Shown here: positions 36,617-43,355 of the stretch, one piece after another
Layout of the letters: each line of letters opens with the position of its first letter
Position numbering within the stretch: the first letter of the stretch is position 1
Assembly: GCA_002162095.1 (NCBI GenBank)
Contig: CP021424.1
Location: 2,232,001 to 2,296,000 of the forward strand
Direction of reading: 5' to 3'
From: Armatimonadetes bacterium Uphvl-Ar2
GTDB lineage: Bacteria; Armatimonadota; Fimbriimonadia; Fimbriimonadales; Fimbriimonadaceae
Length of the DNA: 64,000 bases
Translations under genes and position numbers: made by a program
The notes under the pieces: generated by a model
Seen by the model: the letters and a program-made list of their open reading frames with translations, nothing else
Told to the model about the DNA's origin: nothing
Databases searched by the model: none

Positions 36617-38572
36617 TTAGACTCTTTCGTACTCGCGCCGGTCGAAAACGAGGTCATCCGCCACGCGCCACTGCTCCTTGGGCACCTGCGATTCCGGCCG
36701 GATCTTGCTGAAGTGGACAATGGCCGCATCCAGCCCGACTTCGCGGCATCGATCGAGGAAGACGCTGTTCAGCACCGCGCGGGCGACCGGCTTGAGACCG
36801 AAGCTCACGTTGCTGACGCCCAGAATGAAATGCGCCCGGGGGATGCGCGCCTTGAGCTCGCGGATGGCTTCGATGGTCGCTACGCCACTCGCGCGGAACT
36901 CTTCGTCGCCGCTGGCGAGGGTGAAGGTGAGGCAGTCAAAGAACACGTCGTGGTCGGGCAGGCCGTATTCGCGGGTCATGGCGATAATCCGTTCCCCAAT
37001 CGCGATCTTGTCCTCCACCGTCTTGGCCATGCCTTGCTCGTTGATGGTGAGTGCCACCACCGCCGCCCCGTATTTGCGGCACAGCTCCAGCACCCGGCGG
37101 GTGCGTGTTTCGCCGTCTTCAAAGTTGATCGAGTTGATGATCGGCTTGCCCGCCAGGCGGCGCAGCGCCACCTCCGCCACGTTCAATTCCGTGGTGTCGA
37201 TCATGATCGGCACCGTGACGTGCTGGTTGTAAAGCATCAGCAGCCGGTCCATGTCGCGGGCTTCGTCGCGCCCCACGTAGGCGGCGCACACGTCAATCAT
37301 GTGACTGCCTTCGCCCTCTTGCTCGCGGGCCATCTCCACCAGGCCATCCCAGTTTTCGGCGGCCAGCATTTCGCGGAACGCCTTGCTACCGTTGGCGTTG
37401 GTGCGCTCCCCGACGATGAGGAAACTGTTGTCCTGCTCAAAGGGCACGAACTGGTACAGGCTGCTGCACCCGCGCAGGGCAAAGGCATCGCTTTGCTCCG
37501 GTCGCTGAATCGAGAAATCGAAGGCAGGGAAGTGGCCTTGCACGCGCCGCCAGTGCACATCGGCAGTGTGGTTCGCCCCGTTCAGGGCCTTGGCGACGGC
37601 TTCAATGTGGGCGGGGGTGGTGCCGCAGCAACCTCCCGCCAGGGCCACACCGAATTCCTCCACAAACTGGCGGTGGTAGCGGGCGAGTTCGTCTGGTGTG
37701 AGCTTGTACATCGCTTGGCCGCGCTCCATCACGGGCAAGCCCGCGTTGGGCTGCACGCTCAATGGACGGGTGGAGTTCTGGGCCAGCGTGCGGATGTGCG
37801 GCATCATTTCCAGCGGGCCGGTGGCGCAGTTCATGCCGATTGCGACCACTTCCGGGAAGCACTCAATCATGTTGATGGCGGCGAGCATCTCCGAGCCCAG
37901 CAGCATCGTGCCGGTCTGCTCCATGGTCACCTGGACGATGACGGGCAGGCGCACGCCGGTGGCCTCCATGGCCTCGCAGGCGGCCACCAGGCCGGCCTTT
38001 ACCATCAGCAGGTCCTGAAGGGTTTCCAGCAGCAGCACGTCCACGCCTTCTTCGATGAGGCATCGGAAGGCGAGGGTGTAGGTTTCCACCAGGATGTCCC
38101 AGGTGGTTTGGCCAAGGCTGACGAGCTTGGTACCCGGGCCGAGCGCCCCCGCCACGTAGCGGCGTTTGCCATCTTTGGCCTCGGCGGAGCGGGCGGCAGC
38201 CACGGCAATGCGCCCGGCGGCGCGGGCGAGTTCTTCCACGATCTCCGGCGCATCGAATTCGGACATCACGATGCTAGTGGTGCCAAAGGTGTTGGTCTCC
38301 ACGATGTCGCTGCCGGCGGCGAAGTACGCCTCGTGGATGCCCTGGATGAGTTCCGGGCGCGTAAGACAAAGAAGCTCGTTGCAGCCTTCCAGTGGCACCG
38401 AACCGAGCCGCTCCCGCACGATGCTCAAGTTCGCGGAATCAAACGGCACCGCGTCCAGCGAGAAGTCGCTCAAAGGGGGCGCGGCGTTCTGGATTTGGGT
38501 GCCCATGGCCCCATCCCAAATCATCACGCGTTCTTGCAAAGTGGCCAAGAACTCGGTGCCGCGCGAAAACAT
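36617..38572 (-). CDS. metH: MetH N-terminal half: homocysteine- and methyltetrahydrofolate-binding domains
   Basis: The 651-residue protein corresponds to the first half of cobalamin-dependent methionine synthase. Residues 15-350 form the homocysteine-binding barrel, with zinc ligands Cys249 (GMNCATGP) and Cys315-Cys316 (GGCCGTTP). Residues 380-640 form the pterin-binding barrel (GERTNANGSKAFREML, IDTTELNVAEVALRR, INSINFEDGE). There is no cobalamin or activation domain; those are encoded by a separate gene on the opposite strand 0.9 kb away. It starts at ATG 38572, 6 bases after CATAAC, divergent from metF. Confidence 0.92.
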   Translation of the reverse strand: MFSRGTEFLATLQERVMIWDGAMGTQIQNAAPPLSDFSLDAVPFDSANLSIVRERLGSVPLEGCNELLCLTRPELIQGIHEAYFAAGSDIVETNTFGTTSIVMSEFDAPEIVEELARAAGRIAVAAARSAEAKDGKRRYVAGALGPGTKLVSLGQTTWDILVETYTLAFRCLIEEGVDVLLLETLQDLLMVKAGLVAACEAMEATGVRLPVIVQVTMEQTGTMLLGSEMLAAINMIECFPEVVAIGMNCATGPLEMMPHIRTLAQNSTRPLSVQPNAGLPVMERGQAMYKLTPDELARYHRQFVEEFGVALAGGCCGTTPAHIEAVAKALNGANHTADVHWRRVQGHFPAFDFSIQRPEQSDAFALRGCSSLYQFVPFEQDNSFLIVGERTNANGSKAFREMLAAENWDGLVEMAREQEGEGSHMIDVCAAYVGRDEARDMDRLLMLYNQHVTVPIMIDTTELNVAEVALRRLAGKPIINSINFEDGETRTRRVLELCRKYGAAVVALTINEQGMAKTVEDKIAIGERIIAMTREYGLPDHDVFFDCLTFTLASGDEEFRASGVATIEAIRELKARIPRAHFILGVSNVSFGLKPVARAVLNSVFLDRCREVGLDAAIVHFSKIRPESQVPKEQWRVADDLVFDRREYERV

Positions 38573-38578
38573 ATCTCG

Positions 38579-38627
38579 GTTATGGCCCCGTGGCGCACCG
38601 GACCGCTGGGACGCGCCTCGGTACACT
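38579..38627. promoter_or_regulatory. Divergent promoter region of metH (N half) and metF
   Basis: The 62 bases between the two start codons contain CATAAC for the minus strand (38579-38584, 6 bases from its ATG) and TACACT for the plus strand (38622-38627, 7 bases from the metF ATG). Both starts look leaderless. There is no room or sign of a cobalamin or SAM riboswitch. Confidence 0.5.
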
Positions 38628-38634
38628 CTCGGGA

Positions 38635-39504
38635 ATGCGCATTCGGCGGATGCTGGAAACCTCGGAACCGTGTTTCTCCTACGAGTTCTTTCCGCCGAAG
38701 ACCGAGGCCGGTCTCCGCAAGCTCTACGGAAGAATCGAACACCTCAGTGAGCTGAACCCTTCGTTTGTTAGTGTGACCTACGGGGCAGGTGGCGGGTCCC
38801 GCCAAAGAACCGTAGCGATGGCGCAGCACATCAAAAAGGAAATTGGGATCGAGGTCCTGGCCCATTTGACCTGCGTGGGTCACACCCGGGCGGAACTGGA
38901 AGAGCTTCTCGATGAACTCGTAGATGTCGGCGTGGAGAACATCCTGGCCTTGCGCGGCGATCGCCACGATGAAGTCTCCGAAGGCGAACTCCTCTACGCC
39001 CGCGAACTGGTGGCCCTGGCCCGCAAGCGACACCCCCACCTCTGCATTGGCGCGGCGTGCTACCCCGAAACCCATCTCGAATCCCCCAGCCCCGAGCACG
39101 ACCTCCGCTGGACCAAAGAGAAAGTGGATGCGGGCGTGGACTTCCTCATCACCCAGCTGTTCTTCCAGAACTCCAGCTACAGCAAGTTCGCGATGCAGGC
39201 CAACGCCCTGGGGATTGACGTCCCCATCGTGCCGGGGCTCATGCCCATCACCAACGTCAAGCAGATCGAGCGGTTTGCGCGGATGTGCGGGGCGCAAACG
39301 CCGGCCGTACTTTTCGATCGCCTGCGCAAGTGGGAGCACGATGAACAAGCCGTGATGGCCCTGGGCATGGAATGGGCGATCCAGCAGGGGCGTGAGCTGC
39401 TTAGCTTCGGGGTGCCCGGGCTGCATTTCTACACGTTGAACTCCTCCCTGGCCACGCGGGTGGTCCACACCAGCTTGGGAGGTCGCGGACGCTGGTCCGC
39501 CTAA
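38635..39504 (+). CDS. metF: 5,10-Methylenetetrahydrofolate reductase
   Basis: MetF makes 5-methyltetrahydrofolate, the methyl donor for methionine synthase. The 289-residue flavoprotein barrel has SYEFFPPKTEAG (catalytic Glu) at the N-terminus, SVTYGAGG, HLTCVGHT, NILALRGD and the FAD-site DFLITQLFF, with the C-terminal GVPGLHFYTLN. The longer open frame upstream is shadow sequence of metH; I take ATG 38635, 7 bases after TACACT. It is immediately followed by the cobalamin-binding half of MetH, so donor and acceptor steps are coupled in one operon. Confidence 0.94.
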   Translation: MRIRRMLETSEPCFSYEFFPPKTEAGLRKLYGRIEHLSELNPSFVSVTYGAGGGSRQRTVAMAQHIKKEIGIEVLAHLTCVGHTRAELEELLDELVDVGVENILALRGDRHDEVSEGELLYARELVALARKRHPHLCIGAACYPETHLESPSPEHDLRWTKEKVDAGVDFLITQLFFQNSSYSKFAMQANALGIDVPIVPGLMPITNVKQIERFARMCGAQTPAVLFDRLRKWEHDEQAVMALGMEWAIQQGRELLSFGVPGLHFYTLNSSLATRVVHTSLGGRGRWSA

Positions 39505-39513
39505 CGAAATCCT

Positions 39514-41169
39514 ATGCCTGAAGATCGCAACGTCACTTACGACCCGCTGGTCGCGTTTATGGCCCTGTTCGAGAACGTGCAGGCCGTGTCGTCGCAGCAG
39601 GACCCGTTTGAAGGGCTGGGCATCGAGGAGCGCCTGAAGCTCCACATCGTCAACGGCATCAAGAAGAAGCTTGACGGTCACCTCGCCGAGGCAATGGAAA
39701 CGTACACCCCGCTCCAGATCATCAACGACATTCTGCTGGACGGGATGAAGACCGTGGGCGAGCTCTTCGGGGCGGGCAAGATGCAGCTCCCGTTTGTGCT
39801 GCAAAGCGCCGAAGTGATGAAGACCGCGGTGGCCTACCTGGAACCGCACATGGAGAAGGTGGAGGGCAGCGAGAAGGGCTCGATTTTGCTGGCCACGGTG
39901 GCGGGCGACGTCCACGACATCGGCAAGAACCTGGTGGACATCATCCTCAGTAACAACGGTTACCGGGTGGAGAACATCGGCATCAAGCAGCCGATTCAAA
40001 CGATCCTGGAAGAAGCCCAGCGCCGCAACTGCGATGTGATTGGCCTGAGCGGTCTGCTGGTCAAGTCCACCTTGGTGATGCGCGACAACCTGCTGGAGAT
40101 GAACGCGCGGGGCCTCGCTCACATTCCGGTCATCTTGGGCGGCGCCGCTCTCACGCGGGCTTACGTGGAAGAAGACCTGCGCGCCCAGTACCACGGCAAC
40201 GTTTTTTATGCGCAGGATGCCTTTGAAGGCCTGCACTTGATGGGCGAGATCAAAGAAGGCAACACCGAGGACGCCACCCCGCGCGTGTCTCAGCGGGTGG
40301 TTTCGCACCGCTTACCGGACCGCGATCCTGAGCTTTATGTCTTTACCGGCGTACGGAGCGAGATTGAACCCGTGGCCCCGCCCACGCTCCCGTTCTACGG
40401 GGTGCAGAAGCGCACCAAGTTCGACATTTTCGAGCTCTACAAGTACATCAACCCCATTGCGCTTTGGCGGGGGCAGTGGCAGTTCAAGCGCCGCGCCGAC
40501 CAAACCAATGCCGAGTTCAATGCGTGGCTGGAGGAGAACGTCCGGCCGATCTACGAGCGCAAGCAACGCGAACTCGCCAATGTGATGAAGCCGGCGGTGA
40601 AGTGGGGTTACTTCTGGGCGCAGAGCGAAGGCAACGACCTCATTATCTACCATGAGGACCAGCGCACGGAGCGGGCAAGATTCCAGTTTCCGCGCCAGCG
40701 CGATGGCAAGCGGCAGTGCCTGGCGGACTTCTTCCAGCCCGTCTCCAGCGGCATCATGGATGTCGCGGCATTCCACATCGTCACCGTGGGCGGCGACGTG
40801 AGCGAGCACGAGCGCGCACTCTTTGCCAATGGTGATTACGCCGAGTACCTCTACACCCACGGCATGGGGGTGGAAACCGCCGAAGCCCTGGCCGAATACT
40901 GGCACCAGATGATCCGCCGGGAGATGGGGATTGACGACGCCGAACCCGAGGACATGCGGCTGCTCTTTAGCGCCAAGTACCACGGTTCGCGGTATTCATT
41001 TGGCTACCCCGCATGCCCGAACCTGGAAGATCAGCGCATCCTGATGGAGCTCCTCGAGCCGCAAGATATCGGGATCACGCTGAGCGAAGAGGACATGCTG
41101 GTGCCCGAGCAGAGCACCAGCGCGATCATCGTTCACCACCCCGAGGCGAAGTACTTCAACATCCGCTAA
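39514..41169 (+). CDS. metH: MetH C-terminal half: cobalamin-binding and AdoMet activation domains
   Basis: This 551-residue protein supplies what the divergent MetH half lacks. It has a helical cap (about 38-115), a cobalamin domain with the ligand His in DVHDIGKN (132-139) and the SGLLVKSTLVM and GGAALTRAYV loops, then the activation domain (about 280-551) ending with the AdoMet-binding segment SRYSFGYPACPN. Together with the minus-strand gene it would make a full-length two-chain methionine synthase. It is 9 bases after metF. Its stop overlaps the end of the convergent acylase gene. Confidence 0.92.
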   Translation: MPEDRNVTYDPLVAFMALFENVQAVSSQQDPFEGLGIEERLKLHIVNGIKKKLDGHLAEAMETYTPLQIINDILLDGMKTVGELFGAGKMQLPFVLQSAEVMKTAVAYLEPHMEKVEGSEKGSILLATVAGDVHDIGKNLVDIILSNNGYRVENIGIKQPIQTILEEAQRRNCDVIGLSGLLVKSTLVMRDNLLEMNARGLAHIPVILGGAALTRAYVEEDLRAQYHGNVFYAQDAFEGLHLMGEIKEGNTEDATPRVSQRVVSHRLPDRDPELYVFTGVRSEIEPVAPPTLPFYGVQKRTKFDIFELYKYINPIALWRGQWQFKRRADQTNAEFNAWLEENVRPIYERKQRELANVMKPAVKWGYFWAQSEGNDLIIYHEDQRTERARFQFPRQRDGKRQCLADFFQPVSSGIMDVAAFHIVTVGGDVSEHERALFANGDYAEYLYTHGMGVETAEALAEYWHQMIRREMGIDDAEPEDMRLLFSAKYHGSRYSFGYPACPNLEDQRILMELLEPQDIGITLSEEDMLVPEQSTSAIIVHHPEAKYFNIR

Positions 41170-43355
41170 GGGGTGTTGAGCGCCGAGGGCTTGAACTGCC
41201 AGTTCCGTACCAGCGGGGCTTGGTCGCGGGAATGTTCGCCGCTCTCGGCGTTACCCGGGCCGAGCACCGTCCCCGCCTGGATACCCTGCGCTCCGAATCG
41301 GATGATCTGGATGTAAGTGCCCCGGTTGATGTAGGGGATGGGTTCCTCGCCCGGGTAGCGGATGGCGCCCTGGGCGGTCGGGGCCAGCGTGTCGGCTTTG
41401 GCTTGCACGGCCAGGATCGCTTCGCGCACCACTCGCTCGCGCCGACGGGATGGCACCAATTCGAGGCTGCCCGCCCCTTGCAACTGCCGCAGAATCGTGG
41501 TCGGCTGCACCGCTTGCTGGAAGAAGCTGGGGTTCAGAAGCGTGCCCACGGCCGGGGAATAAAGGCGACGGCGCAGCTCGTTCACGACTTCGAGATAGAA
41601 GGCACTGTTCACATCCCCATTGCGCTGAGAGCCGTCGTAGGCGTTGATACGCTGCCGGGCCACGGCAAACTCAGGCGCATCGCCCATCGCCCGCAAGAAC
41701 AGCTCGCGGTACGAGCCGGAAGTGGCCGAATCCGCTTCGCTGATCGCCTTCGCCGCCCCGACCAGGTGCGCCACCGTCACCGGCTGGGTACCCAAGGCGT
41801 GAATGAGACTGTCATTGCGGAAGGCGCGGCCCCACACCGGCGTATCCATGTTCGGCCAGCCGGCAGCGGGCTTGTTGTTCCAGTTCACGATCAGCCCGGT
41901 CTTCGGGTTGAACGAGTGCGGCATCTCCTCGGAGCTCAAGAAGCCCTTCCACTCGGCTTTGGGGTCCAGCGGGAGGGGAAACCGGGCATCGTAGCCGGGA
42001 GCCCGGACCGGGAAGCGCCCGGCGTAGCGCCACCCAATATTGCGGGCATCGGCGGCAAAGACATTGAATGACAAGGGCAGGGTGCCCGCGGCCGCCAGTG
42101 CCGATTTGGCGTCGGTCGCGTGGGCGATATCCCAGAAGACTTCCAGCGCCTTGAGTTCATCGCCGTAGAACGCGCGGCGGACCGTCATCAGGTGCGTGCC
42201 CGCCTTGGTGCGCATGATGACCGGGCCGAGGTGGGTGCATTCGCGCACAAAGGGCACCGACTCTTGGCCCTTCACCTTGATCGTCTCGCGGATCTGCTCC
42301 AGCGGCCGGGTCTCGGTTCCGTACTTGTAGCCGCTTTCCCCGGCGGTGGCCCCGACGTACACGTCTTCCAGGTCCGCCACGCCGCTGGTCAGGCCCCAGG
42401 CATGCTTGGCGGTATGCCCGATCACCATCACCGGCGTGCCGGGAATGGTGATCCCTTGGATGGTGAGCTCGGGGGTGCGGATGCTGGCCTCGTAGACCGG
42501 TGAAGGCGTGGAGTGACCCATCTGGGGCGCGCTCAACAGGTGCACTGCGCCATCCGAGCGCTTGGCGCTGGCCACCACGGCGTACGAGCCCCAAGATTCC
42601 AACACGCCCTCACGGCGGGCGATGAGCCGGGATTCTTCTTCATGCACCGCCGAGATGGCGGGCACGAGTTCCAGTACGGGGATCGCGGGCAATTGCGCCA
42701 AATGGGCCTCTGAATCCGCCCGCGTGAACTTGGGCAGCCGCGCCACCCCGCGCCCTTTCGACAAGTCATCCTCCGCACTCACGGTGGGCGTGGAAAGCGG
42801 GTCATCCTGCCAAATCAGCTCGTCCAGCGCGTCGAATCGTTGGTTCCGCACCGGCTGGAGCTTGAGATACTCCATCAAGGCGAGCGACCGGAGTTCCCCC
42901 GCGCCCCCGGTACCGAACCGACGAGCCATCGAAACCCCAATGGCCACCGAATCCTCCAGCGTCCACGGTTCGGGGTCAAATCCCAAGGTCTCGTAGCCAT
43001 CGGGCATGGTTTGGTCGCGGTTCACACGGTCTATCACCTTGTTCACGCCGCGCACATAGCCCGCAAACATCTGCTGGAATTCGGGCGAAAGCCGGGCGGC
43101 CATCGCGCGCATTTCGGCGTCGGTGTAGCCTTGGCGGCGGGCTTCTTGGTCAGCGGCTAAGGCGCTCGGGCCTTGGATCTCGGCCATGCGGCCCCGGGCC
43201 AAACGGCGGGCCATTTCCATCTGCCACAGGCGGTCTTCGGCGTGCTTTTCGCCTAAGATTTCGAGGGCCGTGGGCAAATCGGTGGCGGAGATGGCGGGAA
43301 CTCCGTATGCATTGGTAGAGTTCAGGGCAACAGCCAAACCCAGCGACAACCACAT
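41166..43355 (-). CDS. Penicillin acylase/S45-family Ntn hydrolase
   Basis: S45 enzymes are exported, autoproteolytic N-terminal-nucleophile amidases acting on acyl-amides such as penicillins or acyl-homoserine lactones. The 729-residue protein starts with a weak hydrophobic leader (MWLSLGLAVALNSTNAYG) and has the alpha-subunit YGVPAISA region and HAEDRLWQMEMARR, then the spacer and the new N-terminal Ser expected in SWGSYAVVASAKRSDG (about 255), followed by LLSAPQMGHSTPSPVYEAS. The typical Asn of the beta-chain (NWNNKPAAGWP) is present. Substrate is unknown. Confidence 0.86.
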   Translation of the reverse strand: MWLSLGLAVALNSTNAYGVPAISATDLPTALEILGEKHAEDRLWQMEMARRLARGRMAEIQGPSALAADQEARRQGYTDAEMRAMAARLSPEFQQMFAGYVRGVNKVIDRVNRDQTMPDGYETLGFDPEPWTLEDSVAIGVSMARRFGTGGAGELRSLALMEYLKLQPVRNQRFDALDELIWQDDPLSTPTVSAEDDLSKGRGVARLPKFTRADSEAHLAQLPAIPVLELVPAISAVHEEESRLIARREGVLESWGSYAVVASAKRSDGAVHLLSAPQMGHSTPSPVYEASIRTPELTIQGITIPGTPVMVIGHTAKHAWGLTSGVADLEDVYVGATAGESGYKYGTETRPLEQIRETIKVKGQESVPFVRECTHLGPVIMRTKAGTHLMTVRRAFYGDELKALEVFWDIAHATDAKSALAAAGTLPLSFNVFAADARNIGWRYAGRFPVRAPGYDARFPLPLDPKAEWKGFLSSEEMPHSFNPKTGLIVNWNNKPAAGWPNMDTPVWGRAFRNDSLIHALGTQPVTVAHLVGAAKAISEADSATSGSYRELFLRAMGDAPEFAVARQRINAYDGSQRNGDVNSAFYLEVVNELRRRLYSPAVGTLLNPSFFQQAVQPTTILRQLQGAGSLELVPSRRRERVVREAILAVQAKADTLAPTAQGAIRYPGEEPIPYINRGTYIQIIRFGAQGIQAGTVLGPGNAESGEHSRDQAPLVRNWQFKPSALNTP

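Follow-up and report, generated by a model that had tools for sequence, protein, structure and literature searches.

Methionine synthase MetH appears to be divided between its folate and Cap domains into two genes across the Fimbriimonadaceae

In the stretch of DNA analysed here (the window, 64,000 nucleotides of the Armatimonadetes bacterium Uphvl-Ar2 genome), methionine synthase (MetH) appears as two genes on opposite strands around metF. The gene contents, first proposed from the letters of the window alone, were upheld by profile searches. The minus-strand gene (the N half, 36617–38626, 669 aa from a GTG at 38626, identified by its ORF and its Pfam and TIGR02082 matches) holds only the homocysteine (Hcy) and folate (Fol) barrels: on that strand, PF02574, the homocysteine S-methyltransferase domain with its GMNC and GGCC cysteine motifs, lies at 37583–38524 (aa 35–348) and PF00809, the pterin-binding folate domain, at 36713–37411 (aa 406–638). 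Its start is probably the ATG at 38572 (giving about 651 aa) and not the GTG, because most relatives align from about ORF residue 24–26. The plus-strand gene (the C half, 39514–41169, 551 aa, also matched by TIGR02082) holds only the Cap domain (PF02607, 39625–39843, aa 38–110), the cobalamin-binding domain (Cob; PF02310 with DVHDIGKN, 39880–40230, aa 123–239) and the activation domain (Act; PF02965 with RYSFGYPACP, 40537–41163, aa 342–550), all on the plus strand. Between the halves, and alongside the C half as had been read, lies metF, specifying 5,10-methylenetetrahydrofolate reductase (38635–39504, plus strand, 289 aa from an ATG at 38635); PF02219 matched it at 1.6e-88 and TIGR00676 above its cut-off. 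The C half begins 9 bases past the metF stop. The presumed starts of the N half and metF diverge from a 62-bp gap (38573–38634), possibly a two-way promoter region; a promoter scan of 38480–38720 predicted none. At its other end, the C half is overlapped on the opposite strand by an ORF (window positions 41166–43355, minus strand) that by eye resembles a protein of the penicillin-acylase type.

The two products were compared with TIGR02082 (metH), a model of the whole MetH chain with a cut-off of 1010.85 bits. The N half matches model positions 1–612 of 1182 and the C half positions 611–1182, and all five domains (Hcy, Fol, Cap, Cob and Act) were found in the window genome. The scores, 624.5 bits for the N half and 543.7 for the C half, both fall below the cut-off, so neither qualifies as a single-chain MetH; annotation with the whole-chain model would overlook methionine synthesis in the Fimbriimonadaceae for this reason. 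The fused Thermus-type MetH (8SSC, 8G3H) has the same five domains in the same order, belongs to the same sequence lineage and is covered along its whole length by the two halves, the N half aligning to chain residues 6–597 of the T. thermophilus structure 8SSC and the C half to residues 596–1149. It is, however, one chain with a covalent Fol:Cap linker (Linker II), while the Fimbriimonadaceae pair is two chains.

Judged from these alignments, the cut falls in the disordered Linker II. In fused relatives the chain continues through a short linker, for instance LIFDERREGYDPL. In the split proteins, N halves stop no more than a few residues from ...DLVFDRREF and C halves open with a Met and a short leader ahead of YDPL; the few exceptions are two contig-cut ends and one C half in which the script missed the motif. 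Each split half has its own start and stop, and the ends abut the linker of the fused relatives. Among named records outside the family that match the C half, a count that leaves out two family members (L046 and L054), both halves stand in one frame in 66 of 67. The lone exception is a Phycisphaeraceae MAG (L047:4070–7701), whose N and C parts occupy two overlapping frames, the change falling at this linker, probably through a frame break. In the T. thermophilus enzyme, Linker II (Lys649–Asp657 in that paper's numbering) is described as unmodelled, with no density, and is proposed to be key to MetH domain movements; the same structural work treats the Hcy-Fol and Cap-Cob-Act pieces as separately expressible (PMC10567725). 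A cryo-EM account of human MTR describes the same two pieces as independent, and reports for a thermophilic MetH of the same sequence lineage that the linker responds to a folate-sensing loop (PMC13376404). The same division, at almost the same point, was made in excised MetH constructs from the laboratory: N-terminal Hcy:Fol (1Q7M, 3BOL, 4CCZ) and C-terminal Cap:Cob:Act (1K7Y, 3BUL, 8SSD). Those are man-made, whereas the Fimbriimonadaceae cut is natural and inherited.

The sequence-only reading had proposed a survey of related genomes for the same split, and both halves were found in 69 of 85 Fimbriimonadaceae genomes, the nearest named loci including those of Fimbriimonadaceae bacterium ACE_ARM5 and ACE_ARM1. 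The PF02574 match of the N half was present in 74 of the 85, and PF02965 in an ORF too short for a fused MetH (≤920 aa) in 73. An N half without a PF02965 C half was seen in five genomes (G017, G026, G043, G044 and G084, the last holding a cut-off piece of the C half), and a C half without a complete N half in four (G002, G030, G032 and G074, with N-half pieces in the latter three). Genomes with one half alone are mostly incomplete assemblies, though not all (G017 is 97% complete). No clear half was found in five genomes (G014, G041, G049, G059 and G060); G059 and G060 are 97%-complete genomes of 1.5 Mb with both halves missing. The 16 genomes lacking the full pair are 68 to 97% complete. A short protein with PF01717 is encoded by 7 of the 85. 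A fused MetH was found in the family only in G050 and, cut by a contig end, in G051, both of one genus. Across the phylum, going by the best-scoring matches listed, some TIGR02082 match occurs in 285 of 291 genomes and exceeds the cut-off in 78, all outside the Fimbriimonadaceae except G050 and G051; in the same order, a fused MetH is found in families f2 (G150, G151, G153, G154 and G156), f3 (G173) and f4 (G176). Those best-scoring matches include one solo Hcy-Fol protein, in G184 (L173:2895–4757), with no C half nearby and beside that genome's own fused metH. The Fol:Cap cut is thus a family-wide trait of the Fimbriimonadaceae and no local oddity.

Gene order is far less uniform. Both halves lie on one contig in 21 of the 69 genomes and on different contigs in 48, in two of which (G046 and G047) the contig break is at the split locus itself. 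Divergent halves with metF between them were found in eight genomes of five genera, 2.0–4.2 kb apart by domain, and divergent halves without an intervening metF in three (8.2–13.1 kb apart); in another ten one-contig genomes a distance of 48 kb to 1.86 Mb separates the halves. The 11 pairs whose halves lie within 14 kb of each other are all divergent. The emphasis first laid on opposite strands and an intervening metF therefore has to be shifted: the cut itself is family-wide, but the divergent N half–metF–C half arrangement is one of several orders, shared by those eight genomes while the halves are dispersed in most. On the joint tree, the linked state requires five changes by parsimony, at least three of them forced by starred branches. 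This fits an ancestral divergent linkage that was lost repeatedly, in a count by which parsimony alone cannot separate gain from loss.

These surveys bear on whether the split could be an assembly or sequencing artefact, an inversion or a frameshift, of a single fused metH. Public data do hold such breaks, since the Phycisphaeraceae MAG resembles a frame break in the linker. However, the same cut recurs in 69 of the 85 family genomes, many pairs lie on separate contigs or hundreds of kilobases apart in single-contig genomes, and each half carries its own start and stop; an assembly inversion between the halves, a concern raised at the outset, is opposed by the same divergent layout in other genomes of several genera. 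An artefact is therefore scarcely credible.

The origin of the split was addressed with two quick maximum-likelihood trees, one with 77 rows for the N part and one with 76 rows for the C part, with SH-aLRT support and no bootstraps. In both, the 46 split sequences form one clade at SH-aLRT 100, nested within the MetH phylogeny and adjoining the fused MetH of family f2 and then that of f4. Since each half is one clade nested beside the fused MetH of sister families, the simplest reading is that a single ancient fission of a fused metH took place in the family ancestor. Separate acquisition of the two halves would agree with their being unlinked in most genomes, but the split clade neighbours the same fused families, f2 and f4, in both trees, and on either side of the cut the linker ends correspond to the linker of fused MetH; this makes it very improbable. 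The fused MetH of G050 (L182; G050:C68) groups with the distant lineage to which the outgroups G087 and G129 belong, and it shares about 31% identity with the window halves; on these grounds it appears to have replaced the split pair rather than to be a survivor.

If metH and metF had once been divergent, a single inversion of the segment carrying the N half and metF would yield the observed order exactly. As an origin of the locus this was set aside, the sister families lacking that starting order: no classical metF was found near fused metH in them, and an inversion origin is unproven. PF02219 matched in 9 of 11 sampled outgroup genomes, weakly (E 1e-30 to 1e-35) and in open frames of at least 602 aa. 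Within the Fimbriimonadaceae, a classical metF is present in 36 of 85 genomes, and in most of the others PF02219 matches weakly, in open frames of about 600 aa. The sole such frame tested, L224:789–2591 of G007, is a YitJ-like homocysteine methyltransferase-MTHFR fusion, and the outgroups show the same pattern of weak match and long frame.

The key residues, said in the sequence-only reading to be intact, are so throughout the sampled pairs. None of the 46 split pairs departs from the two cysteine motifs, DVHDIGKN, SGLLVKST or the GYPACP core; in the activation motif, the R is present in all 46 and the Y of RY in 43. The zinc-cysteine, DxHxxG and Act RxxxGY motifs of MetH are intact. A comparison of the 46 pairs with 26 fused relatives gave 178 columns conserved in both groups for the N half and 199 for the C half, and split-specific substitutions (a residue in ≥90% of split sequences with a different residue in ≥75% of fused ones) numbered zero in the N half and one in the C half. 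With so few, it seems from the alignments that the linker alone had to change upon splitting.

The window genome is one contig of 2.63 Mb, 99.66% complete, in which PF02574 and PF02965 each match once, both at the split locus. A fused metH copy elsewhere is thereby ruled out, and with it the full-length gene that could have made either half redundant. Profile searches of the genome found no PF01717 (MetE-type) domain, hence no MetE backup, and no MttB-family protein. Because there is no other PF02574 or PF02965 match and no PF01717, the split pair is the window genome's only recognisable methionine synthase. The reported absence of a B12 riboswitch at the locus also held: the RNA-family scan of the window gave four tRNAs only, and the genome's single cobalamin riboswitch (33.4 bits against a gathering score of 31.5) lies far from the locus.

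It is conceivable that one half alone serves as the methionine synthase and the other has a different job, for example if Hcy-Fol used free methylcobalamin or paired with a different corrinoid protein, or if other methyltransferases were served by the C half. A shared subunit of this kind is described in Ruegeria, in which a three-part methionine synthase and betaine demethylation use one corrinoid protein (PMC12478193); a solo Hcy-Fol protein does stand beside a fused metH in G184, and the YitJ-like fusion, judged from the one tested, also occurs in many family members. On the other hand, the window genome has neither an MttB-type partner nor a second homocysteine methyltransferase domain, all 46 pairs checked have an intact activation domain, and the halves are retained together across the family. 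Such a division of labour is thus improbable. Since the halves are complete and complementary, are sole copies, are retained together family-wide and have invariant motifs, the best reading is that they very likely form a two-chain cobalamin-dependent methionine synthase, derived from an ancestral fused metH broken in Linker II and acting untethered. A two-chain enzyme had already been thought likely from the window alone. We infer from sequence that the chains associate, are active and are expressed together; co-expression is not assured, because in most genomes the two genes are far apart or on separate contigs.

In such a two-chain enzyme, a fused metH would have broken inside the Fol:Cap linker in the ancestor of the family. 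Methyltetrahydrofolate and, with zinc, homocysteine would bind to the Hcy-Fol half, while cobalamin would be carried and reactivated by the Cap-Cob-Act half. As part of a separate chain, the Cob domain would visit the same three sites as it does in fused MetH, namely the Fol and Hcy barrels and its own Act domain, and metF, presumably in the same transcription unit as the C half at this locus, would supply methyltetrahydrofolate. A bolder version, tentative and rather unlikely, is a fully untethered MetH in which Cap-Cob-Act would be a freely exchanging, self-reactivating methylcobalamin carrier, in transient contact with Hcy-Fol and also serving the YitJ-like fusion where that is present. If true, Linker II would be dispensable for all three methyl transfers.

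Split MetH proteins were already known, as the sequence-only reading had noted for a separate reactivation domain. GapMind describes two-part enzymes in Burkholderia phytofirmans (Hcy / Fol-Cap-Cob-Act) and Bacteroides thetaiotaomicron (Hcy-Fol-Cap-Cob / Act) (PMC7311316). In these, likewise, two proteins jointly cover the fused enzyme, but they are cut at Hcy:Fol or Cob:Act, while the Fimbriimonadaceae cut is at neither and parts Fol from Cap. The three-part synthase of Phaeobacter inhibens and the Ruegeria MtgCDE also keep the corrinoid subunit separate from the homocysteine and pterin modules; as described in PMC5764234 and PMC12478193, they are three chains without PF02965 and, by their authors' phylogeny, not derived from classical MetH. 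The Fimbriimonadaceae halves, in contrast, are two chains that nest inside MetH and keep Act, in a genome with no MttB-family protein. The open-licence papers searched yielded known splits and structural work, and among them we found neither a Fol:Cap cut nor a paper on a Fimbriimonas methionine synthase; Fol:Cap is a third cut place beside the published Hcy:Fol and Cob:Act splits. Structural work has yet to settle how MetH moves one cobalamin among three active sites; a role in orchestrating this shuttling has been proposed for the flexible Fol:Cap linker (PMC10567725). A family apparently living without the covalent Fol:Cap link offers natural two-chain enzymes for direct tests of the linker's role.

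Two C halves of the family depart from the usual form. That of L054 (6001–7664; Armatimonadetes bacterium Uphvl-Ar1) lies in two frames with a break near the end of Cob, which is either a sequencing error or a further split. The C half of G053 (L149:1914–4271) carries an in-frame Y1/IS200-like transposase domain (PF01797) between Cob and Act, and all three of its MetH domains are still open despite the insert.
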